This document shows positions 1,163 to 41,684 of a stretch of 42,600 nucleotides of DNA, one piece after another (position 1 is the stretch's first letter; every line of letters begins with the position of its first letter). Below the pieces are notes generated by a model that did no database searches, had not been told where the DNA came from, and saw only the letters and a list, made by a program, of their open reading frames with translations. The stretch comes from Clostridia bacterium (lineage in GTDB: Bacteria > Bacillota > Clostridia > Oscillospirales > RGIG8002): positions 1 to 42,600 of the forward strand of contig JAFRVI010000033.1 in assembly GCA_017438525.1 (NCBI GenBank), given 5' to 3'. Position numbers and translations under genes: made by a program.

Positions 1163-1732
1163 ATGGACAGCAAAGTCACCGATACCGCTCAGCGACTCAA
1201 GGGACTGCGCGAGATGGAGGATATTTCCGTTTCGCAGATGGCGTCCGCGCTCGGCATTTCAGAGGAAGTTTACAACGAATACGAAGCGGGGAAGCGCGAC
1301 TTCTCGATATCCTTCCTGCATAACTGCGCAAAGCAGCTCGGCGTCGACGTCGTCGACATAATCACCGGCGAAAGCCCGAAGCTTTCCGGCTACACCGTCG
1401 TCCGCACCAACGAGCGCCAGCCGATCGAACGCCGCAGGGGATTTACCTACAACCACCTCAACCCGAACTTCAAGGGCAAGATCGTCGAGGCGTTCGAGGT
1501 CTTCTGCCCGTATTCCGAAGCGGAGCACATCATGGGCATACCGCTTTCGACGCACAAGGGGCAGGAGATGGACTTCGTCCTCGAGGGCGAGCTTGACGTC
1601 GTCGTCGACGGGCACGTCGAACGCCTGAAGCCGGGCGATACGCTTTATATGGATTCCTCCAATCCTCACGGTATGAATGCCGTCGGCAAGGAAGGCTGCC
1701 GCTTCCTCGCGATAGTCGCGTCGGTCGAATAA
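1163..1732 (+). CDS. XRE-family transcriptional regulator with C-terminal cupin domain
   Basis: This is a 189-residue DNA-binding regulator. Residues about 10-68 form an XRE/HTH_3 domain (SQMASALGISEEVYNEYEAG). Residues about 110-187 form a small cupin barrel with HKGQEMDFVLEGELDVVVDG and LKPGDTLYMDSSNPHGM, expected to bind a small-molecule effector. Such fusions usually control small-metabolite or stress operons, and the target and ligand here are unknown. A strong GGGGGAAG site (1151-1158) sits 4 nt before the ATG. It lies 18 nt after pfkA and 3 nt before the glycosylase gene, so it is probably co-transcribed with both and might regulate the operon itself (inference). Confidence 0.88.
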   Translation: MDSKVTDTAQRLKGLREMEDISVSQMASALGISEEVYNEYEAGKRDFSISFLHNCAKQLGVDVVDIITGESPKLSGYTVVRTNERQPIERRRGFTYNHLNPNFKGKIVEAFEVFCPYSEAEHIMGIPLSTHKGQEMDFVLEGELDVVVDGHVERLKPGDTLYMDSSNPHGMNAVGKEGCRFLAIVASVE

Positions 1733-1735
1733 GCT

Positions 1736-2281
1736 ATGGAAGAGTTACGCAAAGAATGCCTCGAATGCAAGCGCTGCGAGCTGTGGAAAACGCGCAATAA
1801 CGTCGTTTTCGGCAAGGGCGATCCGCACGCCGACATTATGTTTATCGGCGAAGGCCCGGGCGAGCAGGAGGACCTGCAGGGCCTTCCGTTCGTCGGCAGG
1901 GCGGGGCAGCTGCTCGATAAGATGCTCGACGCCGCCGGCATACCGCTCGGCAGCGTCTATATCGCGAACACCGTCAAATGCCGTCCGCCGCACAACCGCG
2001 ATCCGCTGCCGGAGGAGAAGGACGCCTGCCGCGGCTGGCTTCAGCGCCAGATCGAACTGATAAACCCAAAGGTCATAATCGCGCTCGGGCGTATCTCCGC
2101 CGCCGACTACGTCAAAGAGGACATTCGCATAATGAAGGAGCACGGTCAGTGGATGGAACGCGACGGCAGAAAGTGTATGGCGATGCTCCATCCCGCCGCT
2201 TTGCTTCGCAACCCGAATCTCAAACCCGAGGCGTTCGCCGACATCCTCAAGGTGCGGGACTATATAGAAGAGAACAACTGA
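1736..2281 (+). CDS. Uracil-DNA glycosylase, family 4 (iron-sulfur type)
   Basis: The enzyme removes uracil from DNA and starts base-excision repair of deaminated cytosine. The 181 residues carry the family-4 pattern: Cys11 and Cys14 (CKRC), Cys82 (KCRPP) and Cys98 as likely [4Fe-4S] ligands, the active-site loop GEGPGEQED (38-46) and the HPAALLR motif (152-158). The ATG follows the previous stop by 3 nt without a clear ribosome site, which suggests translational coupling to the upstream regulator gene. A perfect terminator hairpin lies 17 nt beyond the stop. Confidence 0.95.
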   Translation: MEELRKECLECKRCELWKTRNNVVFGKGDPHADIMFIGEGPGEQEDLQGLPFVGRAGQLLDKMLDAAGIPLGSVYIANTVKCRPPHNRDPLPEEKDACRGWLQRQIELINPKVIIALGRISAADYVKEDIRIMKEHGQWMERDGRKCMAMLHPAALLRNPNLKPEAFADILKVRDYIEENN

Positions 2282-2298
2282 TGATCCCCATAAACAGG

Positions 2299-2328
2299 CC
2301 GACCGAAACAAGCGTTTCGGTCGGTTTT
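2299..2328 (+). terminator. Intrinsic terminator of the pfkA operon
   Basis: CCGACCGAAAC (2299-2309) pairs perfectly with GTTTCGGTCGG (2314-2324) around an AAGC loop, followed by TTTT. The 11-bp stem closes the operon. Confidence 0.9.
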
Positions 2329-2366
2329 CCGCATATTGACAATTTTATATAAACGGGTAAACAATA

Positions 2367-2822
2367 TCAGAATATCGCGCGTTCGAGACGAAGCAGGTAT
2401 TCCTTCTTTTCAACTCCTCCGGCGTAGCCGACGAGATTGGTGTTAACGCCTATCACGCGATGGCAGGGGATGATTATCGCGACCGGATTATTATGACACG
2501 CCATACCTACCGCGCGCGCCGCGCCCGGTTTTCCTATCGCGGCGGCGATCTCGGAGTAGGCGCGCGTCGCGCCATAGGGTATCTTCAGCATCTCGCGCCT
2601 TACCGCGAGCGCGAAATCGGAGCCGTCTTCGGTCAGCGGCAGGTCGAAATCCGTGCGGACGCCGGCGAAATACTCCTTCAGCTGTATCTGCGCTTCGATA
2701 AGCAGACGGCTTTCCCGCGTTTCAACGGCTTCTCCGTTATAATATGACAGTTCGCATATGCGCCCGTCATTTTCCGCGATAAACAGCTTGCCTACGGGAC
2801 TGTCAAATACCGCTGCGTTCAT
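2367..2822 (-). CDS. ogt: Methylated-DNA--protein-cysteine S-methyltransferase
   Basis: This suicide DNA-repair protein transfers the methyl group of O6-methylguanine to its own cysteine. In the chosen 151-residue form the active site IPCHRVIG lies at 118-125 with acceptor Cys120. It is preceded by the helix-turn-helix region YGATRAYSEIAAAIGKPGAARA. The frame stays open upstream to 2969, but GGAGGTG lies about 8 nt before the ATG at 2822, and the adjacent ATG at 2828 would be too close. The extra upstream residues would also overlap the divergent gene and its own promoter. It is transcribed alone. Confidence 0.94.
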   Translation of the reverse strand: MNAAVFDSPVGKLFIAENDGRICELSYYNGEAVETRESRLLIEAQIQLKEYFAGVRTDFDLPLTEDGSDFALAVRREMLKIPYGATRAYSEIAAAIGKPGAARAVGMACHNNPVAIIIPCHRVIGVNTNLVGYAGGVEKKEYLLRLERAIF

Positions 2823-2844
2823 TCTCATCACCTCCACCGATAAT

Positions 2845-2873
2845 AATATACCACACTTTCGCCGTCCTTTCAA
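2845..2873 (-). promoter_or_regulatory. sigma-A promoter of ogt
   Basis: On the minus strand TTGAAA (2868-2873) and TATATT (2845-2850) have a 17-nt spacer. It supports the ATG at 2822 as the ogt start. Confidence 0.75.
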
Positions 2874-2942
2874 CCGCTTTGTAGCAAACGCGGCCCTGCG
2901 AGAATAGAATATCATATAAAAGCAAAAGCGGGGAGTATGGTT

Positions 2943-4037
2943 ATGAATAACGGCGAAAAAAGCACGCATTATTTTCTCGGCGCAAACAGCGGCGAGGGTT
3001 TCGTATCAAGGTTCGACGAGCTCGACTGTATGCTCGGGCTGAATAGGAAAATCATCATCAAAGGCGGTCCCGGAACGGGTAAATCGCGCATGATAAGGCG
3101 CGTCGCGGAGCATTACGAGGGGATGGGCAAGGCGGTGGAATACATCCACTGCTCCTCCGATCCCGACTCGCTCGACGGAATAATCGTTGACGAGCTCGGC
3201 GTATGCGTCGCCGACGGCACCGCGCCGCATATCCTTGAAGCCGATCTGCCCGGCGTGCGCGACAGCATCGTCAACACCGGCGACTTCTGGGACGAGAAGG
3301 CGCTCGCGGCCGAGGCGGAGGCGGTCGCGGACCTCTGCAAGCGCATCAAGCACGAGTATAACTCCGTCTACCGCTCGCTCAAGGGCGCGGAACGGCTGAA
3401 AAGCGACAATTTCAACATAGTAGACGCGGGCGTGAAGCGCGATAAAATGAAGGCGTACACACAGCGCCTTATACGTAAAGAAATACCTTTTTCCGCGAAT
3501 CCCGAGCCGTATTACTACCGGCGGTATCTGTCGGGCATAACGCCTCGCGGCGTGCTGGTTTACTGGAACACCGTCCGCACGCTCTGCGACAGGGTTTACG
3601 TGCTGAACGACGAATACGGCGTCGGAAGATATATCCTTGAAGAACTTCGCACGGCGGCGGTGATGCGCCGGCAGAACGCGATAGTATGTCTCTGCCCGCT
3701 TTACGAGGGCGAAGTCGCGGAGCACCTGCTGCTTCCGGAGCTGCGGCTCGCGTTCGTAACGTCGAACGAATACCACGCGTTCCCCGGCGAGCCGTACAAA
3801 CGCATAAATATGCAGCGGTTTTACGATAACGAAAACGTCCGTTCGCACCGCAACCGCATCCGCTTCAACAAGAAGACTGCCGCCGCGCTGATCGGGAAGG
3901 GATGCGAGACGCTCGCCGGCATTAAGATAATGCATGACAAGCTCGAGCGGCTCTACACACATACGATGGATTTTGCAAAGCTCGAAGGACTTACGCGCTC
4001 CGTTATAGACCGCCTCGACGCTTTCGTCGGAGAATAG
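2943..4037 (+). CDS. Putative P-loop ATPase resembling the PRK06851 family, second P-loop degenerate
   Basis: The protein has 364 residues. The first half carries a clear Walker A, GGPGTGKS (41-48), followed by VEYIHCSSDPDSLDGIIVDE. It resembles, from memory, a two-lobed NTPase family of spore-forming Firmicutes annotated PRK06851, with no known function. In that family the second lobe repeats the design, with a stretch like YLSGITPRGVLVYW followed by another P-loop. Here the equivalent position reads VLNDEYGVGRY (about 219-229), with no Lys-Ser/Thr, so the second site is probably dead. The ATG at 2943 is preferred to 2937 because GGAG (2932-2935) then sits 7 nt away. It is divergent from ogt and stands alone. 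Confidence 0.7.
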   Translation: MNNGEKSTHYFLGANSGEGFVSRFDELDCMLGLNRKIIIKGGPGTGKSRMIRRVAEHYEGMGKAVEYIHCSSDPDSLDGIIVDELGVCVADGTAPHILEADLPGVRDSIVNTGDFWDEKALAAEAEAVADLCKRIKHEYNSVYRSLKGAERLKSDNFNIVDAGVKRDKMKAYTQRLIRKEIPFSANPEPYYYRRYLSGITPRGVLVYWNTVRTLCDRVYVLNDEYGVGRYILEELRTAAVMRRQNAIVCLCPLYEGEVAEHLLLPELRLAFVTSNEYHAFPGEPYKRINMQRFYDNENVRSHRNRIRFNKKTAAALIGKGCETLAGIKIMHDKLERLYTHTMDFAKLEGLTRSVIDRLDAFVGE

Positions 4038-4057
4038 GAAAAATTTTGCATTATCTA

Positions 4058-4087
4058 TTGAAAGAAACCTATATAGTATGCTATAAT
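4058..4087 (+). promoter_or_regulatory. sigma-A promoter of the DUF512-der-plsY-gpsA operon
   Basis: TTGAAA (4058-4063) and a perfect TATAAT (4082-4087) are separated by 18 nt, ahead of the ATG at 4138. Confidence 0.85.
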
Positions 4088-4137
4088 AACAAACAGAGTA
4101 ATATGCCCGCAGTGTGATCTGCGCCGGAAGTGAAACA

Positions 4138-5457
4138 ATGTCCGTAAATGTTGCAAAAGTGAATAAGCATACACCGGCGTATGAAGCGGGGATCCGCGCC
4201 GGTGCGCTTTTGCATAGAATAAACGGGCAGGAGATAAACGACCGCCTCGACTATGATTTTTACTCTTCCGACGAGGATCCCGTATTTGAGTTCGAGCAGG
4301 ACGGCGAGCTTCGCGAGGTAACGCTCGAAATGGACGAATACGACGACGCGGGACTTGAGTTCGACACCTATCTTATCGACTGCCAGCAACGCTGCAAAAA
4401 CAAGTGCGTCTTCTGCTTCATCGAGCAGAATCCCGCAGGTATGAGGGACGCGATATACTTCAAGGACGACGACTCCCGTATGTCGTTCCTCGCCGGCAAC
4501 TACATAACGATGACCGCCGTTGACGACGCGGAGCTCGAGCGGATGATCCGTTACAAGCTGAACGTCAACGTTTCCGTCCACACCACCGAGCCGGAGCTGC
4601 GGGTGGCTATGATGAAGAACCCCGCCGCCGCGAAGATAAACGACCAGCTTAAAAAACTCGCAGCCGGCGGCGTGAAGATGAACTGTCAGATAGTGCTATG
4701 CCCGGAAATAAACGACGGAGCGCATCTGGAACGCAGCGTGCGCGATCTCGCCGCGCTGTATCCGGCCGTGCAGAGCGTCGCGGTTGTGCCGGTGGGACTG
4801 ACGGAGCACCGCGGCGGACTTTCTCCGCTGCGGCTGAACACTCCCGAAGAAAGCGCCGCCGTGATAGACTTCGCCGAGAGCTTCGGCAGGGAGTTCAAAG
4901 CGAAGAACGGCACGAGCTTCGTTTTCGCCGCGGACGAGTTCTATATCAACGCGGGCAGGGCGATACCGCCGGCGGAGTACTACGAGGATTATCTGCAGTA
5001 CGAAAACGGCGTAGGAATGCTCGCTTCACTGCTTGACGAGTCCGAAGCGCTGATTGCTTCGCTCACCGAGGGGAAAAAGAAGGCGACGGTGCACGTTATA
5101 ACCGGCGTCGCCGCGGCGCCATACATAAAGCGCGTGCTCGAGGAGCTGCGGGCGAAATGTCCGCGTCTCGAATACGCCGTCCACGCGGTGAATAACGACT
5201 TTTTCGGCAGGAGCGTGACCGTCGCCGGTCTCGTTACCGGCACGGATATATGCGGCCAGCTCGCGAAGTTAAAGCTCAAGGGATACGTTTTTATCCCGGA
5301 TACGATGCTTCGTTACGAAAACGATATGTTCCTCGACAGCATGACGCTGAAAGAGGTTTCCAAGCGCCTCGGCGTGAAGGTCCGTCCGGTTCCCGCGGCG
5401 GGCGCGGCGCTGGCGCGTGAAATTGCGGAGGTATGCGGATGCGGAAGTATACGGTAG
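4138..5457 (+). CDS. DUF512 family protein: PDZ-like domain plus radical-SAM-type Fe-S domain
   Basis: This 439-residue protein belongs to a group of Fe-S proteins of unknown reaction, common in Clostridia and cyanobacteria and often found next to der. Residues about 1-60 resemble a PDZ fold (TPAYEAGIRAGALLHRINGQ). Cys86, Cys90 and Cys93 form a C-x3-C-x2-C cluster (CKNKCVFC) of radical-SAM type, with Cys82 just before it. The C-terminal half is the DUF512 domain (GRSVTVAGLVTGTDI, FIPDTMLRYENDMFLD). The ATG at 4138 has GGAAG about 8 nt upstream, and an earlier ATG at 4114 lacks such a site. Its 3' end overlaps der, indicating coupled translation. Confidence 0.88.
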   Translation: MSVNVAKVNKHTPAYEAGIRAGALLHRINGQEINDRLDYDFYSSDEDPVFEFEQDGELREVTLEMDEYDDAGLEFDTYLIDCQQRCKNKCVFCFIEQNPAGMRDAIYFKDDDSRMSFLAGNYITMTAVDDAELERMIRYKLNVNVSVHTTEPELRVAMMKNPAAAKINDQLKKLAAGGVKMNCQIVLCPEINDGAHLERSVRDLAALYPAVQSVAVVPVGLTEHRGGLSPLRLNTPEESAAVIDFAESFGREFKAKNGTSFVFAADEFYINAGRAIPPAEYYEDYLQYENGVGMLASLLDESEALIASLTEGKKKATVHVITGVAAAPYIKRVLEELRAKCPRLEYAVHAVNNDFFGRSVTVAGLVTGTDICGQLAKLKLKGYVFIPDTMLRYENDMFLDSMTLKEVSKRLGVKVRPVPAAGAALAREIAEVCGCGSIR

Positions 5458-29054: not shown

Positions 29055-30488
29055 TTATTTTTTCCACGTAGCCGGTGAAAGTCCGATTATCAACGGGAAT
29101 ATCTCAAGTCTTCCGAGCATCATCATAGCCGAGAGAACTATCTTCGAGAACGCCGAGTAGTTCGCGTAACAGGACTGCGTTCCGAAGAACGGGCCGATAT
29201 TGTTAAAGCAGGATATCGTTGCCGTCAGATTCGTTTCAAACCCGAAACGCTCCCACGAGATCAGAAGGAATGCCGTGATGAGACACAAAACGTAAAACGC
29301 GAGGTAAATCGTTACGCTCTTCTGCGTCGCTTCGTCGACGTCTTTTTCCTCAAATTTAATAGCGTTTACGGAACGCGGATGGAGCATGTGTCTGACTTCG
29401 CGCGTTATCTGCTTAAAAATCAGTATGACTCGCGAGACTTTAATGCCGCCGGCCGTCGAACCCGCGCAGCTGCCGATACACATCAGCACCAGCAGAATGC
29501 CTTTTGAAAGTGAAGGCCACGCGTTCATATCTGTCGTAGTATAACCGGTGGTGGTGATGATCGATGACACCGAGAACGTCGAGTCCTTGATCGCTTCGCC
29601 GAGCGTGGCATACAGCGAGCTGATGTTCCAGGTGATTATCGCAGCGCCGATGACAAAGAGAGAAAGATACAGCTGCAGCTCCGAGCTTTTCAGTACCGCA
29701 CGGAGTTTGCGCATCAGCAGCAGGTAATAGAGGTTGAAGTTTATACCGAACATCAGCATGAAGACGGTTACGACAATCTGTGAATATGAGCTGTATGCGC
29801 CGATCGAAGCGTTCTTTATGCTGAATCCGCCTGTGCCGGCGGTGCCGAACGTGTGGACGAGCGCCTCAAAAAGATTCATGTCGCCTGCCCAGAGGAATGC
29901 GACCTCGGTAAGTGTGAGCACTATGTAGATATAATACAGTATTTTAGCTGTGTCGCGTGCCTTCGGCACGAGCTTGCCTACGGCGGGGCCGGGCATTTCC
30001 GCACGCATCAGATGTATCGAGCGGTCGGAAACGTTGCGCACGACAGCCATGAGGAGCACTATAACGCCCATACCGCCGAGCCAGTGGGTGAAGCTTCGCC
30101 AGAAGTGCATTCCGTGTGAGAGCGTTTCGACGTCTTCGAGAATGGAGGCGCCGGTGGTCGTAAATCCGCTGACCGTTTCAAAAAACGCGTTGACATAGTT
30201 CGGTATGGCGCCGCTTATGACAAAGGGGAGAGCGCCTATGGCGGACATTCCTATCCAGCTCAGCGCCGCGATGGCGAAACCCTCTTTGGCATAGATTACG
30301 TGGTTTTTCGATTTGAATATCAAAAGCAGCAAAAAGCCGAGCAACGCAGCACCCGCCGAAACGACGATAAAAGACTGCATGGACTTCTGCTCGCCGTATA
30401 TCAATGAAACGACTGCGGGGAGCAGAAGACATGCCGCGCACGCGAGCGACATTCTGCCGAGGGTATTGAATACCATTTTGCGATTCAT
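29055..30488 (-). CDS. trkH: Potassium uptake membrane subunit, TrkH type
   Basis: This 477-residue ion-conducting subunit has four repeated pore units: SGFTTTGASI, GTAGTGGFS, TTTGYTTTD and CFNNIGPFFG. The Gly in each forms the selectivity filter. Its length and the SPATWKK end match TrkH rather than the shorter KtrB. It needs an NAD/ATP-binding RCK partner, which could be either TrkA or KtrA in this operon. The ATG at 30488 follows GAGGTG by about 10 nt. A GTG at 30500 overlaps that site. It is the last gene of the four-gene operon. Confidence 0.93.
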   Translation of the reverse strand: MNRKMVFNTLGRMSLACAACLLLPAVVSLIYGEQKSMQSFIVVSAGAALLGFLLLLIFKSKNHVIYAKEGFAIAALSWIGMSAIGALPFVISGAIPNYVNAFFETVSGFTTTGASILEDVETLSHGMHFWRSFTHWLGGMGVIVLLMAVVRNVSDRSIHLMRAEMPGPAVGKLVPKARDTAKILYYIYIVLTLTEVAFLWAGDMNLFEALVHTFGTAGTGGFSIKNASIGAYSSYSQIVVTVFMLMFGINFNLYYLLLMRKLRAVLKSSELQLYLSLFVIGAAIITWNISSLYATLGEAIKDSTFSVSSIITTTGYTTTDMNAWPSLSKGILLVLMCIGSCAGSTAGGIKVSRVILIFKQITREVRHMLHPRSVNAIKFEEKDVDEATQKSVTIYLAFYVLCLITAFLLISWERFGFETNLTATISCFNNIGPFFGTQSCYANYSAFSKIVLSAMMMLGRLEIFPLIIGLSPATWKK

Positions 30489-30540
30489 AACCGAACGCAC
30501 CTCATGATTGTTTTCACCTTTTGGGAAAACGTGTTATCGT

Positions 30541-31188
30541 TTAGATTTTGAAGCACTTCTGGAGTGCCTTGCGGTCGCCGAGGACAAGCATTGTCTTGTG
30601 CTCGTTGAGGACCGTCTCGGGAGTGACGGAAAGATTCATGTCGCCGTTATTCTTGACGGCGAGGATATTTATGCCGTACTTTTTGCGGATATCAATCTGA
30701 CCGACGGATTTGCCGATCCAGTCTTTAGGAACCGTGACTTCGAATATGGCGTGTTCTTCGTCAAGCCGTATGTAGTCGAGGATGTGATCTGAGGAGTAGC
30801 GGATAGCCGCCCATTCGGCGATCTGCTTTTCGGGATTGATGACTTCGTCGGCGCCGTTGCGCAGCAGGAACTTCGCCTGCACCTCTCTGTCCGCGCGGGA
30901 AACGACGAGTTTGCCCCCCAACTCTTTGAGCAGAGAAGTCGTTTCGAGGGAGCTTTGGAAATCGTTCCCGATAGCCACGATGCATACGTCGAAGTTGTTG
31001 ATGCCGAGAGATTCGAGGAACACCTCGTTCGTGCTGTCGCCGATCTGCGCGTCGGTGACGTAGGGGAGAACGGCGTTCACGCGCTCCTCGTCGCGATCGA
31101 TAGCGAGCACCTCGTGACCGAGCTCGCTGAGCTGTTTCGCGACCAGGCGGCCGAAATTGCTGAGGCCTATTAACAGAATAGATTTCAT
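30541..31188 (-). CDS. ktrA: Potassium uptake regulatory subunit, KtrA type (single RCK)
   Basis: This 215-residue cytoplasmic gating ring protein starts KSILLIGLSNFGRLVAKQLSELGHEVLAIDRD, a nucleotide-binding RCK_N (TrkA-N) domain. It ends with a TrkA-C domain (EVTVPKDWIGKSVGQIDIRKKYGINILAVK). One RCK unit, about 220 residues, is the KtrA size. AAGGAG lies 8 nt before the ATG. It follows the ktrB gene by 22 nt, so the two probably form the KtrAB channel. Confidence 0.92.
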   Translation of the reverse strand: MKSILLIGLSNFGRLVAKQLSELGHEVLAIDRDEERVNAVLPYVTDAQIGDSTNEVFLESLGINNFDVCIVAIGNDFQSSLETTSLLKELGGKLVVSRADREVQAKFLLRNGADEVINPEKQIAEWAAIRYSSDHILDYIRLDEEHAIFEVTVPKDWIGKSVGQIDIRKKYGINILAVKNNGDMNLSVTPETVLNEHKTMLVLGDRKALQKCFKI

Positions 31189-31210
31189 AATAACATCTCC
31201 TTGTTGTTGA

Positions 31211-32545
31211 TCAGCCGACGCTGATCCTTCCGACCGGACGCTGCGAAACGTCTCCGCCTTTGCTGTTGACGGCGGCGTACATCAGCGTCAATCCGCCCAC
31301 ACGACCGAAGAACATCAGCAGTATAAGGATCATATGCGACGCAAAACTGAGCGCGGGGGTTATGCCGAGCGTCAGGCCGACCGTACCGATTGCCGACGCG
31401 GTTTCAAAAATACAAGCGCCGAGCGGCAGACTGTCAATAATACTGATCGCTGCGGCTCCGGTAAGCGCGAGGAACAAATACATTATCAGCAGCGCGGCGG
31501 CGCTTTTGACCGTGCTGTCCTCGATGCGCCTGCCGAACATTTCCGGGCTTTTCTTTCTGCGGATAACAGAAACCGAGCTTGAGCACAGTACCGCGAGCGT
31601 TGTTGTTTTCATACCGCCGGCAGTCGAACCGGGCGAGCCGCCGATGATCATAAGTACGATGATCAGCATACGTCCGGCGCTCGTGAGCGCGGTAAGGTCG
31701 GCGGTGTTGAAGCCCGCGGTCCTCGGCGTTATCGCCTGGAAAAGCGACAGACAAATGCGGTCGCCCATCGGATGATCGGCGTATTCGCCGAAGAACAGTA
31801 TCACGGCGGGGATAAATATCAGCAGGGCAGAGGTAACGAGAACGACCTTCGTCTGAGTTCTGTATCTCTTAAAGTGATGCTTGTGCGTGTAAATATCGTC
31901 CCACGTCAGGAAGCCGATGCCGCCTATGATAATCAACAGCGACAGAGGGATGACTACGCCGGGATTGCTTCCGAACGACGTCAGTGAAGAGAACTGTCCG
32001 GTCCGCGCTCCCATAATATCGAAACCGGCGTTGCAGAAGGCAGAGATCGAATGGAAGAACGACATCCATATACCCGCGGCGCCGTACTGCGTGCAGAAGC
32101 TTGGCAGCAGCACCAGCGCGCCGGCAACCTCGAATATCAGCGCGGTCTTGAAGATGAAGCTCGTCATCCTTACGATGCCGCCTATCTGGTGCGCGGAAAT
32201 GCTGTCCTGGAGCATACTGCGCTGCAGAAGGGAAATCTTCCTGCCGGAAATCATCGCGATAAACGCGGCGACGGATATGACGCCGAGTCCGCCTATCTGT
32301 ATCAGCACGAGGATCACGGCCTGCCCGAAAGGCGACCAGAAGCTCGCGGTGTCCTGAGTAACGAGTCCGGTGACGCATGCGGCGGAGGTGGAGGTGAAGA
32401 GCGCGTCTTCAAAGCGCGCGCCGCCTTCGCCGTTCGTCGCCATGGGAAGCGTCAGCAGGGCGGTCCCGACGAGGATCAGGCATATAAACCCGAATATAAT
32501 GATTTGGAAGGAAGACGGTTTCTTTTTGAATAGCCCTCCGCTCAT
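31211..32545 (-). CDS. ktrB: Potassium uptake membrane subunit, KtrB type
   Basis: This 444-residue pore-forming subunit has four pore motifs: SAACVTGLVT, AFCNAGFD, PRTAGFNTAD and ASAIGTVGLTLG. The substitutions in filters 1 and 4 and the shorter N-terminus match KtrB rather than TrkH. The C-terminal FGRVGGLTLMYA is a common family ending. It lies 41 nt after trkA and just before ktrA in a single leftward operon. Confidence 0.93.
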   Translation of the reverse strand: MSGGLFKKKPSSFQIIIFGFICLILVGTALLTLPMATNGEGGARFEDALFTSTSAACVTGLVTQDTASFWSPFGQAVILVLIQIGGLGVISVAAFIAMISGRKISLLQRSMLQDSISAHQIGGIVRMTSFIFKTALIFEVAGALVLLPSFCTQYGAAGIWMSFFHSISAFCNAGFDIMGARTGQFSSLTSFGSNPGVVIPLSLLIIIGGIGFLTWDDIYTHKHHFKRYRTQTKVVLVTSALLIFIPAVILFFGEYADHPMGDRICLSLFQAITPRTAGFNTADLTALTSAGRMLIIVLMIIGGSPGSTAGGMKTTTLAVLCSSSVSVIRRKKSPEMFGRRIEDSTVKSAAALLIMYLFLALTGAAAISIIDSLPLGACIFETASAIGTVGLTLGITPALSFASHMILILLMFFGRVGGLTLMYAAVNSKGGDVSQRPVGRISVG

Positions 32546-32586
32546 AACGGTACTCCGATCATAAAAACTGATTATCCGCCGCGCTG

Positions 32587-33945
32587 TTACGCGAGGATGT
32601 CCGAAAGGTCGAAAAGCTTCTTGCCGGAAACGATAACTACGACTCTGTCGCCGGAAAGGATCATATCGTCGCCGGTGGGGATCATCGCCTTGCGTCCTTT
32701 AATTATTCCGGCGATGAGGATGCCGGGTTTCAGCTTAAGATCCTTGAGCGCGGTTTTGACGCCCCTGAAATCGGCGCCGACCTTGAACTCGATCGCCTCG
32801 ACGCTGCCGTCCATCAGTTTGTAAAGCGTCTCGACGTTGCTGCCGAGGGAGTTTTGCAGCGCACGGGCGTAGCGCGAAACTATATCCGAAACGATGCGTT
32901 TAGGCGAGATGACGCTGTCGAGCCCGAGGTTCTGCGCCATAGCGTAAAGCTCGTCGCGGTTGACTTTGGAAATGACCTTCGGCACGTTGCGCGAGCCGGC
33001 GAAAATGGAGATGAGTATGTTCTCTTCGTCCATGCCGGTCAGCGCGAGGAACGCGTCGACGCGGTCGATGCCTTCTTCGATGAGAAGCTCCTGCTCGGCG
33101 CCGTCGCCGACGATCATCGTAGCGGCCGGCAGCTTTGAGGAAAATTCGCGGCAGCGTTTTTCGTCCTTGTCTATGACCGTGACGTTGCTTCCGCCGGAGA
33201 GCAGACGCTTAGCGAGGTAGAAAGAGATTCGGCTCGCGCCGAGTATAAGACTGCTTCGCGTCTGGCGGCTGACGACGTCCATCATCTTCAAAAGCTTGAT
33301 TATTTCGGCGGGCGGCGCGGTGAGGCCGATCCTGTCGCCGCTCTGCAGAACGAAGCTGCCGTCGGGGATATAGACCTTGCCTTCGCGCTGGACGGCGCAG
33401 ATAAGGAACTTCGCCGGGAACTTGCGGCGCAGGTCATGGAGTGCAACACCGTCGAGAGGGGAGCCCGCCTTCAGTTTCATCTCGACCATTTCGAGGTTGC
33501 CGCCGGAGAAGGTCTCGACGTTGACCGCCGCGGGGAGCTTGAGTATTCTGAATATTTCCTGCGCGGCGAGCCAGTCGGGGTTGATCGATGCGGCGAGGCC
33601 GAGGTGCTGGCGGACGAAGATCATGCTCTTGTCATTGTATTCGGGGTTGCGGATACGCGCAATGGTGTGCTTTGCGCCCATGCGCTGGGCGAAAAAGCAG
33701 CTGAGCATATTCGTTTCGTCTGCGCCCGTAACGGAAACGAAAAGCTCCGCCTTCTCAACGCCGGCTTCGGTAAGAGTCTCGAAGTCCGTGCCGTTTCCGC
33801 AGACGGAAATAACGTCGTATATATTGCCGATGTTTTCGGTGACGGCTGGATCCATATCGACAGCGACGACGTCGTGTCCTTCGGCGACGAGACTGGAAAT
33901 GATAGCCGTGCCGATCTTGCCGCAGCCGACGATGATAATTCTCAA
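32587..33945 (-). CDS. trkA: Trk system regulatory subunit TrkA (double RCK)
   Basis: This 452-residue cytoplasmic regulator has two complete RCK units. The first begins RIIIVGCGKIGTAIISSLVAEGHDVVAVDMD. The second begins SLILGASRISFYLAKRLLSGGSNVTVIDKD near the middle. Each is followed by a TrkA-C lobe. The likely start is TTG at 33945 with a GAGAG site 8 nt upstream, giving the usual MRIIIVGCG beginning. A GTG at 33954 touches the site and is less likely. It is the first gene of the potassium operon, with a strong promoter. Confidence 0.93.
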   Translation of the reverse strand: MRIIIVGCGKIGTAIISSLVAEGHDVVAVDMDPAVTENIGNIYDVISVCGNGTDFETLTEAGVEKAELFVSVTGADETNMLSCFFAQRMGAKHTIARIRNPEYNDKSMIFVRQHLGLAASINPDWLAAQEIFRILKLPAAVNVETFSGGNLEMVEMKLKAGSPLDGVALHDLRRKFPAKFLICAVQREGKVYIPDGSFVLQSGDRIGLTAPPAEIIKLLKMMDVVSRQTRSSLILGASRISFYLAKRLLSGGSNVTVIDKDEKRCREFSSKLPAATMIVGDGAEQELLIEEGIDRVDAFLALTGMDEENILISIFAGSRNVPKVISKVNRDELYAMAQNLGLDSVISPKRIVSDIVSRYARALQNSLGSNVETLYKLMDGSVEAIEFKVGADFRGVKTALKDLKLKPGILIAGIIKGRKAMIPTGDDMILSGDRVVVIVSGKKLFDLSDILA

Positions 33946-33976
33946 TCGTATCACTCTCTTTCACAACGATACCGGA

Positions 33977-35025: not shown

Positions 35026-37896
35026 TTATCTCACAAACTTGAGCGTGAGGATCTTCTTCGGCGCGATCTCGAAATCGACGAAGCCGTCCTTGCCGATCGC
35101 AAGCTCGGATTCGGGAAGTTCTTCGAGCGTTACGACGCTGCACTTGCTCCACATCCTGCCGTCGTAGGGGGGCAGATACCACTCCGCCGCCTCTCTCTCG
35201 CAGGGGGACTGCGGCGCTTCGATCGGCGCGCGCCCCTTGTTGAGCCGGATGGCGTTCTTGATCGTCTTGTCGGAGTAGTTGAAGAGTCTGACGACGTAGC
35301 CCTCCTCGTCCTCGCTCTGTTTTACGGCGCTGACGTTGAGGTTCTCTTCCTTCAGCTCGAGGAAGGAGTGCGTCATCGGGTTCTTGCCGCCGTCCTTCGG
35401 CGCGATCTGCGCGAGCGAAGGATCGAGGGTGAAACGCTCGGACATCTGCCATACCTTCGCCTTCTCGTAATCGCCGGTGTAGGGGTAGAAGGCGTATTTG
35501 AAGGTGTGCTTGCCGAGGCACTGGGAGCCCTTGTCGATCTGGCTGTAATCCTGCATCGAGCAGACGCAGATGCGCAGCGGGAAGGCGCGCAGCAGCGTCA
35601 GGTACATCGTGCGGTCCTTGTCGGCGTCGTCGACTTCGTACGCTTTCAGGCCGAAGTTGAGCAGCGCTACGCCGTCCTTGCCGTCGTGCATCGTGACGAA
35701 GGAGTTCATAGGATGCTCGGTCATCGGCAGCTCGTCATAGAGCGAATAGTCGAGCTTCGCGGTCTGGCGCTTGACGATATCGAACTGTCCCTGCGCATAG
35801 ACGCTGTCGCTCACTATGCCGGTGGGGAAGCCGACCTGCAGGTAGTGATCCTCGGCGCGGTTGTTGACCGTGGTCTCTATGGCGACGTACTTGGCGCCCT
35901 TATGCAGCGTGATGACGCTGTCGATGGAAACGGGCACGAGGTGCGGGCTTCTCTTCTTGTCGCCTTCGCCGCGGGATTCGGGCAGCATCCAGTCTAGCGT
36001 TACGCGGAACGCCGTTTCAAGCTTGCCGCTGCGATAGACGGAGACCTTCGGAGTCTCGGTGAGGGTGGTGAAGACCTCTTCCTGCTCGACCGTGAAGTGC
36101 TCCCACGGATTGGCGATCTCGGAGGAATCCTTGAAGAAGCCGAGGTTTTTGTATTCTCTGCCGTTCTCCTTGTTGATGACGTTGAACGTGCCGTTGGAGT
36201 TCATCGAAACGATGAGATATTCATTCTCCATCGTGGTCGGGGAGGTGAGCATCGTTTCGGGAGTCGTCTTTCTCTCGCCGGCCTTGACGGTCACGAGCTT
36301 GAGCGTCTTATAGCCCATCGCGGGGATATCGGCGACTTCAAGGCGGATCTCATATTGCTCGGTCGGGATGACGTTGGGCGAGTCATGCATAAACTGGACG
36401 ACCTGCTCGTTGGCGCGGTTGGTGGAAACGAGCTGATATGCGAGCTCCTTGCCGTCCTCGTCGTAGATGTGGAACGCCTGGCCCTTGTCGTTCTTCGGCC
36501 AGGGGCGCAGCTCGACTCTCGCTTCAACGACCTCGGTGCGCTTGAAGGGCGCGGGGTTGTAGACGACGATGGCGCTGTCGTCCTCGGAGAAGCCCTCGAG
36601 CTTGATGTCGCCGGCGACGTCGATGAACGCGCGCTCATAGACGCAGCTGCTGATCTCGCGGGACTGCTTGAAGCGCGCCATGACGTCGTCCGCGACGACG
36701 TCGCGGCTGCAGGCGCCGATGCTGTCGTGTCCGTGATTCTGGAGCAGGTAGTTATAAGCCAGCGCGATGAAGTTCTTCGGATACGCGGCTCCGCAGAGCG
36801 CGGCGAAGACCGCGAGCGGCTCGGCGTAGTTGGTTAAGTCGCGCTCGGTGCGGAAGTTTGACTGCTTGATATACATTCTCGCGGAGCAGACCCAGCCCAT
36901 CAGCGGCGAAACGCTGCCCTTGGTGGAGGGCCTTCTCATCTCGCCCTTGATGAGCGTGGACTTGGGATCGAAGTTCTCGATGACCGCGTCCTCGAACTCC
37001 TTGAGGGAGGAGAAGAAAACGTCGCATTCGGGGAGCTTGTCGTTGAGGTCCTTGACCATCCTGACTTCGCGGGCGTCCGGGAAGGAGGAGTCGTGGCTCT
37101 CGGACCAGAAGCGGTGGTTGGTCGTCCATTCGCCGTCCTGCTCTTTAAGGGCGTTCTTTCCGGCTTCCTCGACTCTCTCGGTGAAGTATTTATAGAAAGG
37201 ATGGGTATACTGCATATCCATCGGGTGACGCTCGGAGTCGATGAACTTGAAGACGCCGTTGGTGCTGTCCCACTTGAAGACGCGGTTGTTTACGTCGTCT
37301 ACGTTGAAGTACACCGGGCGGTGGACGACGTACCAGACGTTATAGCGCGGGCGGGTGGCGAGACGGGAGGCGTAGATGCGCGTGCCGTCGGCGCCTTCCC
37401 AGAAGAATTCGGACTTCGGCGCGACGTAGGGGTTGAGTCCGCGGTAGAAGGAGGCGAAGCGGATCCCGAAGCCGCTGTAGATCTGCGGCATCTGCGAGAT
37501 CTGGCCCCAGCCGAAGGGGGAGTAGCCGGTCTTGCTGACCGCGCCCATCTCCTTGCCGATCTTATGGCCGAGCAGCAGGTTGCGGATAAGGGATTCGCCG
37601 CCGACGCAGAACTCGTCCGGCAGGCAGAACCACGGGCCGATGGCTATGCGGCCTTCGCGGACGTACTTCTGGAATCTTTCCTTCTTCTCCGGATATACCT
37701 CGAGGTAATCCTGGACGGGCATCGTCTGCGAGTCGAGGTGGAAGTGCTTGTAGTCGGGATTCTTGTCAAGGATGTCGAAAAGCAGGTCGAGCATCTGGCC
37801 CAGCATGAACTGGGTGCGTCTGGCGGAGTAGCGCCATTCTCTGTCCCAATGGGTGTTGGGGATAAAGTGGCACTGGATCTTCTGATTCTTGTCCAT
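35026..37896 (-). CDS. GH38 (alpha-mannosidase) family protein lacking the canonical nucleophile Asp
   Basis: This 956-residue cytoplasmic protein (no signal peptide) has GH38 architecture. It carries the N-terminal zinc motif THWDREW (His16, Asp18), LDSQTMPVQDYLEVYPEK, GPWFCLPDEFCVGGESLIRN and NHGHDSIGACSRD (near 388). A large C-terminal beta domain follows. In ordinary GH38 enzymes the nucleophile and third zinc ligand is the Asp of a PDxFG motif before QMPQI. Here residues 124-139 read GYSPFGWGQISQMPQI, placing Phe128 at that position. So the family is sure but mannosidase activity is not. It is translated 12 nt after the HAD gene. AAGGAG precedes the ATG. Confidence 0.85.
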   Translation of the reverse strand: MDKNQKIQCHFIPNTHWDREWRYSARRTQFMLGQMLDLLFDILDKNPDYKHFHLDSQTMPVQDYLEVYPEKKERFQKYVREGRIAIGPWFCLPDEFCVGGESLIRNLLLGHKIGKEMGAVSKTGYSPFGWGQISQMPQIYSGFGIRFASFYRGLNPYVAPKSEFFWEGADGTRIYASRLATRPRYNVWYVVHRPVYFNVDDVNNRVFKWDSTNGVFKFIDSERHPMDMQYTHPFYKYFTERVEEAGKNALKEQDGEWTTNHRFWSESHDSSFPDAREVRMVKDLNDKLPECDVFFSSLKEFEDAVIENFDPKSTLIKGEMRRPSTKGSVSPLMGWVCSARMYIKQSNFRTERDLTNYAEPLAVFAALCGAAYPKNFIALAYNYLLQNHGHDSIGACSRDVVADDVMARFKQSREISSCVYERAFIDVAGDIKLEGFSEDDSAIVVYNPAPFKRTEVVEARVELRPWPKNDKGQAFHIYDEDGKELAYQLVSTNRANEQVVQFMHDSPNVIPTEQYEIRLEVADIPAMGYKTLKLVTVKAGERKTTPETMLTSPTTMENEYLIVSMNSNGTFNVINKENGREYKNLGFFKDSSEIANPWEHFTVEQEEVFTTLTETPKVSVYRSGKLETAFRVTLDWMLPESRGEGDKKRSPHLVPVSIDSVITLHKGAKYVAIETTVNNRAEDHYLQVGFPTGIVSDSVYAQGQFDIVKRQTAKLDYSLYDELPMTEHPMNSFVTMHDGKDGVALLNFGLKAYEVDDADKDRTMYLTLLRAFPLRICVCSMQDYSQIDKGSQCLGKHTFKYAFYPYTGDYEKAKVWQMSERFTLDPSLAQIAPKDGGKNPMTHSFLELKEENLNVSAVKQSEDEEGYVVRLFNYSDKTIKNAIRLNKGRAPIEAPQSPCEREAAEWYLPPYDGRMWSKCSVVTLEELPESELAIGKDGFVDFEIAPKKILTLKFVR

Positions 37897-37908: not shown

Positions 37909-38904
37909 TTATCCTTTGATTATATTCATTATTTCGGCGAAGGAATCGGTGTAGTGCGAGCAGAGCGCTTTAGTGCCGCTGGATTCGATGTTGCCTCCGG
38001 AAATGCCGATGGTGGCGTAGCTCGCGAGCCGGATGGAGCAGGCGCCGGCGCCGCTGTCCTCGATGCCGACGACGTGAGCGCGCTCGGCGAAGGGGATGTT
38101 AAGACCGACGACGCAGGTCTCGGAGTAGAGCCACGGATGCGGCTTCGGCGAAAGCTCGCCGAGCGTTCCGACGCTGCCTTTGCGGAGCGGGAAGCCGGCG
38201 GAAATTATCGCGTCGTAGAAATCCTTCGGATCGCCCATCTTCAGCGTCTTGAACGCAGAGAGGATCTCGGGCCACGCTTTTTCGTAGAGGCCGGAGGTTA
38301 CGAGGCCGATCTTGACGCCCATATCCTTCAGCTCGTAGAGGAAATCCTTGAGCCCGGGGGTGGGGACGAATGCGTTTTCTCTGCCGCGGCCTTCCATGAT
38401 CTCCTGCATCTCTCTGTGAGTATGCTCGAAGTAGAAGTTTCTCGCGTCCTCGAGCTTCTTGTCGGGGCAGTACTTGTTGATGCAGTACTTCAGATGTTCC
38501 GAAACGCTGTGGCCGGAAACGTAGGGGAGGTCCGCCTCCTCGAGCTCGAACTTCGGATTGCCGAGCAGACTCGCGACGGAAAGCTGTATGATCCAGATCC
38601 AGAACTCCTCGCTGCGGACGGAGGTTCCGTCGAGGTCCATAAGGACCGCTTTCAGCGGGCGCTCGATGGATACGGGGTAAACGGGATAATAGACCGGGAA
38701 CGCGATCGCGGATTTGACGCAGGCGAGAGTCTGGTTTCCGAAGGAAACGAACTCGACCTTGCGGTCGCCGGTCGCGGCGATCTCCTCGACGCCGTTGACG
38801 CCGCGGGTGTAGCGTCCGTCGCTGGTCTGTTCCATTCTGATGAGACCCGCGTCGGCGCTGAAGGTTCCCAGATCGGGAAGAAAAATAGGTTTGATTTCAC
38901 TCAT
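37909..38904 (-). CDS. HAD-superfamily hydrolase with an unusual N-terminal extension
   Basis: This 331-residue protein has a C-terminal HAD domain of the beta-phosphoglucomutase/phosphatase class. It has DLDGT (Asp90, Asp92), VTSG, the Lys of SPKPHPWLY and GIEDSGAG. A helical cap (EEFWIWIIQLSVASLL onward) follows motif I. The first ~85 residues (IFLPDLGTFSADAGLIRMEQ to SIERPLKAV) are not part of a usual HAD fold and I do not recognise them. It probably acts on a sugar phosphate or phosphosugar in the same pathway as the GH38-like protein. AAAGGA lies 11 nt before the ATG at 38904, and an ATG at 38916 overlaps that site. It heads the two-gene operon. Confidence 0.85.
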   Translation of the reverse strand: MSEIKPIFLPDLGTFSADAGLIRMEQTSDGRYTRGVNGVEEIAATGDRKVEFVSFGNQTLACVKSAIAFPVYYPVYPVSIERPLKAVLMDLDGTSVRSEEFWIWIIQLSVASLLGNPKFELEEADLPYVSGHSVSEHLKYCINKYCPDKKLEDARNFYFEHTHREMQEIMEGRGRENAFVPTPGLKDFLYELKDMGVKIGLVTSGLYEKAWPEILSAFKTLKMGDPKDFYDAIISAGFPLRKGSVGTLGELSPKPHPWLYSETCVVGLNIPFAERAHVVGIEDSGAGACSIRLASYATIGISGGNIESSGTKALCSHYTDSFAEIMNIIKG

Positions 38905-38970
38905 AGGTTTTACCATCCTTTGCCGGAGTTGGCAGAATGTCCTTTTTACAATCTGCCTTATATATTGACT

Positions 38971-39030: not shown

Positions 39031-39093
39031 CAGAAAATTTTCCAATATCTTGCGGTAGAAGACTCGATTTTCGCTCTTTGTTATTGTATTTGA

Positions 39094-39122
39094 TTGACAA
39101 GACGCAGCGCGTATGTTATAAT
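39094..39122 (+). promoter_or_regulatory. Consensus sigma-A promoter of the phosphoesterase gene
   Basis: TTGACA (39094-39099) and TATAAT (39117-39122) have a 17-nt spacer, a full consensus match. Confidence 0.92.
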
Positions 39123-39158
39123 TATGGAAACAAATATGCGCATAAAGGAGTGATTCTA

Positions 39159-41684
39159 ATGAGTGTAAAGAAAAGTGCTATGAGAGCATTGTCAATCGTT
39201 CTATGCCTGGCTATGTTTGCCGGAATCGGATTCACACGCTTCACGATGAGCGCTTCCGCAGATGCGCTTGTCAGGGTCGTTAACGGCAAGGCGCTCATGT
39301 CGTCTTCTGTTACATTCATTCAAGCATATATCGACTGCGAAAAAGACGTATCAACGGAGGTGAGTTTTTTCGCGGCGACCGGACTTGACGTTTACGGTTT
39401 CTCTTCCTACTACGGCGGAGACGTAGACAACGTAAAGTCCGATCCTTCCGAAACGCATCTGACCGGCACCGACGGAGATTATTACGTTACATGGACGAAT
39501 GACCGCTCTTTGAATCCTTATCAGGCGTTTGAAGCTGATGTTTCGGGTATCGTTGGCAACATCATCATAGGATATGACGGCAAACTCCACGATACGGATA
39601 CCAATGGTTCGATAATACTCCAAGTATGGAGCCCTGCCGAGAATAAGTATATTAAAATGGATGAATGCGGAGTCGTGAGCGGCACGGGTGTCCCTGCCGG
39701 CTCGGTATCGGTATGTGCGGAAATAAACGCGGCTGAGTATTCTGAGAACGGCATCGTCAGGTACAGAGTCGTTCTGCCGACCGACGCAGCTTATAAGTGG
39801 ATTTATACACGTCACGCAACAGTGGGGCAAGTAGACGAAAGCACGCAGTACGGCACTACAAAAACGCGGACTAAGCCCGGCAACGCTTCCTTGAATTATA
39901 AAGGCGAAGTTGTTCCCGGAATGTGCTTCTGCGTGAAGACGGAGACCGACGCCGGATACGGATATTCGATGATATTCCCGTTCAGCTCTGAAAACACCGC
40001 GCAGTCTCAGCTTGCTCACTTCAACGTTAACTTTAACGGCGACGCCTGCACGACGCGCAACATGAGCTGGGTTTCCAAAAACGACCTCGCTGCCGCTGTG
40101 GTTCAGGTCGTGCCTTACGGCAAGCTCGACCCCGATTTCACCAATGCGAGAACCTATACCGGCAAAAAAGACAGGATAAAGAACGCCGAGAAACCCTACG
40201 GCTTCTACGTCACCGTCGACGACCTCGAGCCCGATACTGAATACTGGTACCGTTACGGCGACGGGAATAGTGTTTGGTCTTCACCGTGCTATTTGCGTAC
40301 CGATGACGGCGACGCGCACTTTTCGTTCATGATGAGCGGAGATCCGCAGTCTTACACCGACAGCACCGATGAAGCGCAGATCGAAAAGGTGTTCGGACAG
40401 TACAGGCAGGTCGGTTATTCTTTTAATGAAGCGAAACGCACCACCGGCGCGGAGTTTATGGTCGTGTGCGGTGACGAAAGCGACCACGGCAACTATGAGT
40501 CTTGCTGGGATTGGTACTATGACAAAAACCAGACGTTCTACCGATCTTCGACGCTTGCGCCGACGATGGGCAACCATGACAGCTGGGGGTGGGATATGTG
40601 GCTTGCGAATCACTTCCTTTCGGACCCCGATACCGGCGAACGGGGAAGTTACTGTTCGTTTGACTACGGCAACGCTCACTTCATTATCCTTAACGGCAAT
40701 ATAGCCGAGGCAAATAACAGAAGGGCGATGCGCGATAAGGAATACGCGTGGCTCATAAGAGACCTTGAAGAGCACAAGGACGCTGACTTCAAATTTATAA
40801 TCGAGCACCAGGGTATGTATTCGTATCCGGTGCATACAAACGAGGCGGAAACTGTCGAAATCCGTTCTATCCTCGTGCCGATAATAGACGAATACGGAGT
40901 AGACTTCATGATGCAGGGGCACGATCACATCTGGCTCCGCACGAGCTCTATGGAAGGCGGCAGAAATGTTTCCCCCGGCAACACGACGACGATAACCGAT
41001 ATCGTCACCGGAGATACCTACATCGTGGATCCGCAGGGAACGACCTACTGCAACGGCGGCTCGCTGACGGGCAGTAAGTATCACAATCCGAACCCCGCGA
41101 ACTTTCTGACGCTTATTTCCGTTGCCTGTGCCGCTCAGCCCAATATGCCGACTTATAACACCTTTGAGATCGACGGGGGCAAGCTGAAGTTCAAGGGCTG
41201 GGCTTTCAACAAGTCGACAGGCGTGATTTCGAGGATCGGCCAGTATTCGCATTACGGCAATGAAACAGATGGCTACAGCATAGTCAAGACTTCCTACTAC
41301 ACTAAGATCAATAACCGCATAAACGCGCTTCCCGAAACGCTGACGCTTGAGGACAGGGAAGAGGTCCTCGCGCTCAAAAAGATGTGCGACGCCGAGAGCG
41401 AAACGTTCCTTGACGCTTACGTTCCGGACGCGGGAAAACTCGCGGCAGCTTATGAAACCGTCGAGCAGCTTTATCAGGATTCGATAATCAAAGGAGACCT
41501 TGACGGAGACGGCGAAGTGACCGTAGCGGACGCGCTTGCCGCGCTTCGTGTTGCCGTTGGTCTTGCGGATCAGCCCGAAGGCGACGCGCTTATCGTTGCC
41601 GACGTCGACTGCGACGGTGAAGTGACTGTTTCCGACGCGCTTCACATTCTCCGTTTTGTCGCAAAACTCGTTGACGAGCTGTAA
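39159..41684 (+). CDS. Secreted metallophosphoesterase with C-terminal dockerin
   Basis: This 841-residue exported protein starts with a signal peptide (about 1-32, AMRALSIVLCLAMFAGIGF, SASA). An uncharacterised N-terminal domain (about 35-280) and a purple-acid-phosphatase-like Fn3 domain (near 300-390, ending DDLEPDTEYWYRYGDG) follow. The calcineurin-type catalytic domain has GDPQ (around 394), VVCGDESDH, MGNHD (around 470), EHQGMYS and QGHDHIW (around 586). The last ~60 residues form a type I dockerin: two calcium loops, DLDGDGEVTVADALAALR and DVDCDGEVTVSDALHILR. Dockerins dock to cohesins, so it probably joins an extracellular complex. AAAGGAG precedes the ATG at 39159. No cohesin gene is in the window. 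Confidence 0.92.
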   Translation: MSVKKSAMRALSIVLCLAMFAGIGFTRFTMSASADALVRVVNGKALMSSSVTFIQAYIDCEKDVSTEVSFFAATGLDVYGFSSYYGGDVDNVKSDPSETHLTGTDGDYYVTWTNDRSLNPYQAFEADVSGIVGNIIIGYDGKLHDTDTNGSIILQVWSPAENKYIKMDECGVVSGTGVPAGSVSVCAEINAAEYSENGIVRYRVVLPTDAAYKWIYTRHATVGQVDESTQYGTTKTRTKPGNASLNYKGEVVPGMCFCVKTETDAGYGYSMIFPFSSENTAQSQLAHFNVNFNGDACTTRNMSWVSKNDLAAAVVQVVPYGKLDPDFTNARTYTGKKDRIKNAEKPYGFYVTVDDLEPDTEYWYRYGDGNSVWSSPCYLRTDDGDAHFSFMMSGDPQSYTDSTDEAQIEKVFGQYRQVGYSFNEAKRTTGAEFMVVCGDESDHGNYESCWDWYYDKNQTFYRSSTLAPTMGNHDSWGWDMWLANHFLSDPDTGERGSYCSFDYGNAHFIILNGNIAEANNRRAMRDKEYAWLIRDLEEHKDADFKFIIEHQGMYSYPVHTNEAETVEIRSILVPIIDEYGVDFMMQGHDHIWLRTSSMEGGRNVSPGNTTTITDIVTGDTYIVDPQGTTYCNGGSLTGSKYHNPNPANFLTLISVACAAQPNMPTYNTFEIDGGKLKFKGWAFNKSTGVISRIGQYSHYGNETDGYSIVKTSYYTKINNRINALPETLTLEDREEVLALKKMCDAESETFLDAYVPDAGKLAAAYETVEQLYQDSIIKGDLDGDGEVTVADALAALRVAVGLADQPEGDALIVADVDCDGEVTVSDALHILRFVAKLVDEL

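Follow-up and report, generated by a model that had tools for sequence, protein, structure and literature searches.

We analysed a 42,600-nucleotide stretch of DNA from a Clostridia bacterium (contig JAFRVI010000033.1, positions 1 to 42,600; hereafter the window). Its minus strand carries a gene for a GH38-type protein that lacks the catalytic nucleophile of the family (35026..37896), with a gene for a HAD-family protein directly upstream (37909..38916). Nucleophile loss, together with a kept acid and metal site, gained arginines and a conserved HAD partner, fits an inverting alpha-mannoside phosphorylase on the zinc GH38 scaffold, with the HAD protein turning its product, beta-mannose 1-phosphate, into mannose 6-phosphate. 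We regard the chances of this reading as about even; the inferred parts of it are catalysis, phosphorolysis, the substrate, the configuration of the product at the anomeric carbon, what the arginines do and whether the HAD protein acts as a mutase.

A GH38-type protein without the nucleophile aspartate

The GH38-type gene is an uninterrupted open reading frame of 956 amino acids by translation, matched by the Pfam GH38 N-terminal, middle and C-terminal profiles. Glyco_hydro_38N scored 94.7 bits (cut-off 25) and Glyco_hydro_38C 75.8 bits, and the matches above cut-off to the N and C profiles and to GH38C2 place the protein in GH38 by sequence. In phmmer alignments with the solved enzymes EfGH38 (3lvt/5kbp) and SpGH38 (2wyh), its segment GYSPFGWGQISQMPQI ran without gaps along their GYFPDTFGNMGQTPQ, and Phe128 fell opposite the Asp of the PD-x-FG motif. 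This residue, Asp125 of SpGH38, is both zinc ligand and nucleophile (PMC2815779). The remaining SpGH38 active site comprises the zinc ligands His13, Asp15 and His351, the acid/base Asp232, the stacking Trp18, Arg149, and Tyr192, which hydrogen-bonds the nucleophile (PMC2815779). A preliminary description of this DNA had placed Phe128 at the Asp position and reported that the HWDREW and NHGHDS motifs remain; the codon at 37513..37515 indeed reads TTC on the minus strand, and both motifs were found.

Alignments at 22-30% identity can shift, and Asp and Glu are plentiful in the protein. Both points could speak for an ordinary retaining alpha-mannosidase that uses another residue as nucleophile, with the alignment misjudged. 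The motif is, however, gapless between the fixed Pro127 and Gly131, which makes alignment error unlikely. We also found no new conserved acidic residue in the clade: each universally conserved acidic column is either shared with canonical bacterial GH38 proteins or is the known acid/base. Because none of these columns is new, there is no relocated nucleophile, and we consider the ordinary mannosidase scarcely credible. The preliminary description had named two outcomes that would speak against it, another Asp filling the nucleophile site and a characterised homologue with the same motif and normal activity. No new conserved Asp or Glu column could fill the site, and no such homologue turned up. 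As the residue that defines the retaining mechanism is missing, the label of retaining alpha-mannosidase does not suit the protein, even though it belongs to GH38 by sequence and fold.

The fold was assessed by structure modelling. A model built on 19 close sequences was set aside for its low quality in the catalytic domain, with a mean predicted local distance difference test (pLDDT) of 65.6, while a second, from a 69-sequence alignment, reached a mean pLDDT of 80.9 and a predicted template modelling score (pTM) of 0.87. The latter matched SpGH38 and EfGH38 along their whole length (Z 33, root-mean-square deviation 2.6-2.7, 828-836 residues aligned, 24-28% identity; Foldseek E 7e-65), and on the strength of this match the whole GH38 fold is predicted to be kept.

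A genome scan recovered 69 loci in Clostridia/Oscillospiraceae metagenome-assembled genomes, one Spirochaetaceae and one Anaerolineales metagenome-assembled genome. Every scan locus covering the site read SPF[GS]WG, with Phe in all close relatives (58 sequences counted). More distant relatives read ESFGWG (G103), TPSSWGQ (G044) and TATSYGQ (G090 and G374). Comparison of the window gene with genus relatives gave a ratio of nonsynonymous to synonymous substitution rates (dN/dS) of 0.09-0.10, indicating that purifying selection acts on the protein. Given the invariant Phe in independent genomes and this low ratio, we rejected decay and sequencing error; chance or a lone variant was likewise set aside, as close relatives all have Phe and distant ones with the HAD gene have Ser or Thr. 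The maximum-likelihood tree of the Phe, Ser and Thr variants, which has long branches, required 1 to 2 changes, and a single origin appeared in 7% of bootstrap trees. No relatives were found in viral contigs. The window's own genome also holds one canonical GH38 (contig C16, NVDSFG).

In G103 the nucleophile-less GH38 is split across two contig ends (L112, G103:C47; L147, G103:C8), with the HAD gene after the C-terminal part; this is probably an assembly break. G044 carries the unit of Ser-variant GH38 and HAD twice (L111 and L010), and in both copies an extra GH38 N-terminal fragment starts right after the HAD gene.

Residues retained and gained in the catalytic domain

We compared the columns of the catalytic domain between 62 nucleophile-less sequences and 36 canonical GH38 proteins that came from these same genomes and loci. 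The Asp that serves the retaining mechanism as nucleophile and zinc ligand was present in 36/36 canonical sequences and in 0/62 of the others, all of which have Phe, Ser or Thr instead. The three other zinc ligands were kept as His16 (37849..37851; His13 of SpGH38), Asp18 (37843..37845; Asp15) and His390 (36727..36729; His351), all on the minus strand like the residues that follow. The acid/base was kept as Asp269 (37090..37092; Asp232 of SpGH38) in 62/62. Trp21, Arg152 and Asp391 were likewise retained, the first two matching the stacking Trp18 and Arg149 of SpGH38.

The loss of an essential nucleophile might mean that the protein is a pseudoenzyme, which would bind mannosides or act in regulation without catalysis and would control or scaffold the HAD protein or a neighbouring canonical GH38. 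In dGMII the equivalent change, D204A, provides the inactive protein used for complexes (PMC2815779; PDB entries), and many relatives have canonical GH38 genes in the vicinity. Yet Asp269, the three zinc ligands and the residues of the -1 subsite are invariant across 57-62 sequences, and a binding protein would not need all of them; the newly gained residues, moreover, are conserved as strongly as the catalytic ones. We consider a pseudoenzyme quite unlikely.

Basic residues were gained at 22, 184 and 321. Position 22, a Tyr in canonical HWDREWY enzymes, is Arg22 in the window protein (37831..37833) and Arg or Lys in 62/62. Arg184 (37345..37347) forms an R-x-N motif with Asn186 (37339..37341), an Asn found in 62/62 nucleophile-less sequences and rare in canonical ones. 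In the alignment Arg184 adjoins the position of SpGH38 Tyr192, about one residue away when counted from the preceding conserved strand, and should for this reason be near the vacated nucleophile site. Arg321 (36934..36936), in a GEMR motif, is invariant in the nucleophile-less set, and its column is basic in 8% of canonical sequences. At column 130 the clade has Trp or Tyr where the canonical PDxFG has Phe.

After residue 184 the clade also carries some 45 extra residues that canonical GH38 proteins lack in the alignment. Such a stretch could remodel an acceptor site, and the three-ligand zinc site is compatible with other group transfers, such as a transglycosidase with a sugar phosphate or organic acid as acceptor, or a zinc hydrolase resembling deacetylases, as known from the NodB fold, a distant relation. 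The mannose subsite and the acid/base, which a deacetylase would not need, are nevertheless kept, and there is no direct evidence for another acceptor. We regard this alternative as improbable.

A further possibility is an inverting or otherwise altered hydrolase, in which a three-ligand zinc with an open site would activate water for attack on C1 and the HAD protein, as a phosphatase of sugar phosphates or a mutase, would work at another point of mannose catabolism. The retained zinc triad and acid/base are in keeping with this, and a hydroxide could occupy the open ligand site. There is, however, no new conserved general base, and the residues gained are arginines, not acids. 

Inverting phosphorylases have 'a single catalytic residue' and phosphate as the attacking group (PMC8950772); such an enzyme requires an acid only, because phosphate itself attacks. 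By sequence the protein has this arrangement: the acid Asp269 is kept, the nucleophile is lost, and no new conserved acidic column appears that might serve as nucleophile or base.

A conserved HAD-family partner gene

The HAD gene, which the preliminary description had missed, encodes 335 amino acids and ends 12 bp before the start codon of the GH38-type gene. Its product matched Pfam HAD_2 and Hydrolase and consists of an N-terminal extension of about 85 residues followed by a HAD domain with DLDGT, VTSG, K(PHP) and EDS. The motifs DLDGT, VTSG, KPHPW and EDS were invariant in 19 HAD homologues and supply the HAD catalytic set of DxD, Thr/Ser, Lys and an acidic pair. In 59 loci the start of the GH38 gene was present with enough flank, and in 56 of them tblastn found the HAD gene directly upstream, mostly 12-48 bp away. 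In one of the three exceptions it lay in the same locus, about 1.1 kb further upstream of the GH38 gene, and in the other two elsewhere in the genome. Across 394 genomes of the order, which are related and not independent samples although they span several genera, the HAD gene occurred in 13 and the nucleophile-less GH38 in 12, all 12 among those 13. Next to the Ser variant the HAD gene stands on the other side of the GH38 gene, with gene order swapped, and next to the Thr variant of G090 it lies just downstream. The Spirochaetaceae genome and the Anaerolineales genome have it too. Among 398 genomes sampled from the phylum, only the window's own genome yielded it, and plasmids gave no match.

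The HAD protein was more conserved than its partner, at 65-77% against 54-67% identity within the main clade. For the Ser and Thr variants the HAD was 65-69% identical and the GH38 about 31-35%. The invariant zinc triad and Asp269, together with this conserved dedicated partner gene, make altered chemistry better supported than lost chemistry, although the chemistry itself is deduced from sequence. This agrees with the preliminary description, which had assigned the protein to a divergent subgroup whose chemistry is altered or lost and had not taken it for a product of decay; the clade proved real, with low dN/dS and invariant substitutions around the nucleophile.

All 19 HAD proteins matched TIGR02009, a beta-phosphoglucomutase family and the best family in the scan (best E 2.5e-9). 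TIGR01990 and several phosphatase families of the HAD type were matched as well, and all of these scores, TIGR02009 included, fell far short of the curated cut-offs. The window protein scored 18.4 bits against 189.4 and 18.2 against 153.35 (TIGR01990 and TIGR02009 cut-offs), and is thus not a member of the beta-phosphoglucomutase family by these models. A PDB profile search with the HAD protein returned two beta-phosphoglucomutases only, with weak matches (E about 0.002). The protein appears to lean towards beta-phosphoglucomutases, a real but weak affinity.

In relatives the unit is flanked by mannose-related genes (GH125, canonical GH38, phosphomannose isomerase and a PGM/PMM-type mutase) and by other carbohydrate genes (fucosidase, GH94, GH88 and an MFS sugar transporter). 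Phosphomannose isomerase was present in 7/7 genomes checked when PF20511 was used; PF01238 covers only the C-terminal domain and missed the enzyme. In many relatives a canonical GH38 of 1010-1070 amino acids with PDVFG intact lies beside the HAD/GH38 pair and is divergently encoded; the 28 open reading frames concerned are mostly in the loci from L026 to L090, on the minus strand at about 1.4-4.1 kb. GH88 and GH94 genes precede the pair in L075 and L086, and a GH125 mannosidase and phosphomannose isomerase follow it in L086. A defence system was set aside as a candidate function, PADLOC having matched neither the GH38-type protein nor the HAD protein.

Two further features of the window were noted. 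At 39078-41684 (plus strand) lies a divergently oriented gene for a large protein that by eye and clustering resembles a secreted metallophosphoesterase (GD-GNHD-GHDH) ending in dockerin-like repeats at the C terminus; genes related to it stand beside the unit in four loci, all from the closest relatives. At 29055-33954 (minus strand), sequence reading suggests two successive Trk-type potassium uptake sets, with TrkH- and TrkA-like proteins.

A proposed phosphorolytic route and its relation to known systems

Under the phosphorylase reading, the GH38-type and HAD proteins would work together in the cytoplasm to break down alpha-mannosides by phosphorolysis. Zinc, held by His16, Asp18 and His390, would bind the terminal alpha-mannose, and Asp269 would give a proton to the leaving group. 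Inorganic phosphate would take the place of the lost Asp and attack C1 from the beta face, held by the gained basic residues (candidates Arg22, Arg184 and Arg321) and possibly also by zinc. The product would be beta-mannose 1-phosphate, formed with inversion, which the beta-phosphoglucomutase-related HAD protein would convert to mannose 6-phosphate and phosphomannose isomerase to fructose 6-phosphate. A retaining scaffold would in this way have become an inverting phosphorylase by nucleophile loss, a natural form of chemical rescue by phosphate. The phosphorylases of GH130 hold phosphate with three basic residues that the hydrolases of that family lack (PMC4599007). For alpha-glucosides, GH65 phosphorylases yield beta-glucose 1-phosphate, which beta-phosphoglucomutase consumes (PMC4336185, PMC8950772), and the present pair would fit the same logic for mannose.

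Several observations weigh against phosphorolysis. A basic residue aligns at position 22 in 8% and at position 184 in 14% of canonical GH38 proteins, and the bulky Phe at the Asp site could hinder phosphate. Phosphatase families (TIGR02253, HxpB) matched the HAD proteins almost as well as the beta-phosphoglucomutase families, and matched the window copy better. One genome, G023, pairs a HAD protein (53% identical) with a GH2 beta-mannosidase-like protein that has both catalytic Glu, and no GH38 is present there; this pairing is not simply explained by a phosphorylase. The G023 pair lies in L113 (G023:C22) at 1273-4791. A retaining beta-mannoside phosphorylase, as is conceivable for this GH2 protein, would likewise yield beta-mannose 1-phosphate.

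The resemblance of the HAD protein to phosphatases and its occurrence beside a plain hydrolase-type protein in G023 also favour the altered hydrolase. A route through free mannose, on the other hand, gives no reason for tight coupling to a HAD protein with weak beta-phosphoglucomutase affinity. We judge this hydrolase fairly unlikely.

If the phosphorylase reading holds, the protein may be the first phosphorylase for alpha-mannosides and also the first glycoside phosphorylase that depends on zinc, with a dedicated HAD-family beta-phosphomannomutase that yields mannose 6-phosphate without ATP, a fuller claim that we put a little short of even. A review of glycoside phosphorylases places the inverting ones in GH65, GH94, GH112, GH130, GH149, GH161 and GT108 and does not mention GH38 (PMC8950772). 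We found nothing relevant on this clade, on a GH38 phosphorylase or on nucleophile-less GH38 proteins in the open-access literature, which misses most subscription journals. Such an enzyme would give rumen and gut Clostridia an energy-saving route for alpha-mannosides from fungal mannan or N-glycans, show that a retaining scaffold can turn phosphorolytic by losing its nucleophile, make beta-mannose 1-phosphate a metabolite with its own mutase and, run in reverse, offer a new tool for alpha-mannoside synthesis. Should the reading fail, the clade would nonetheless show annotation pipelines labelling a nucleophile-less protein an alpha-mannosidase, and the HAD/GH38 pair would still be a well-defined, testable two-gene unit.

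The closest known relatives are the GH38 enzymes themselves. The protein shares with SpGH38 (2wyh/2wyi) and EfGH38 (3lvt/5kbp) the predicted whole-length fold, the zinc-binding His/Asp/His, the acid/base Asp, the stacking Trp21 and Arg152. Its clade differs from them in having Phe, Ser or Thr for Asp, Trp or Tyr for the Phe of PDxFG, Arg or Lys for the Tyr after HWDREW, the R-x-N motif, about 45 extra residues and an obligate-looking HAD neighbour. The best NCBIfam match of the window protein was the GH38 mannosylglycerate hydrolase MngB (NF007331) at 444.5 bits, far below the 1138-bit equivalog cut-off; with the nucleophile also missing, we rejected membership in that family.

Among phosphorylases, GH65 with beta-phosphoglucomutase is the nearest parallel, with an alpha-linkage, inversion, a beta-sugar 1-phosphate and a HAD-fold mutase, as proposed here (PMC8950772, PMC4336185). 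GH65, however, has an unrelated (alpha/alpha)6 fold and no catalytic zinc, and acts on glucose, not mannose. GH130 shares the mannoside phosphorolysis proposed here and the use of basic residues for phosphate that mark phosphorylases off from hydrolases (PMC4599007), but is a five-bladed propeller that converts beta-mannosides to alpha-mannose 1-phosphate. The partner protein, finally, belongs with beta-phosphoglucomutase (TIGR01990/TIGR02009; 3nas, 4gib) to the HAD subfamily with DxD, and its 19 homologues match that enzyme weakly. It differs in scoring far below the cut-offs, in its unmatched N-terminal extension of about 85 residues and in its cap residues (GHSVSEHL).

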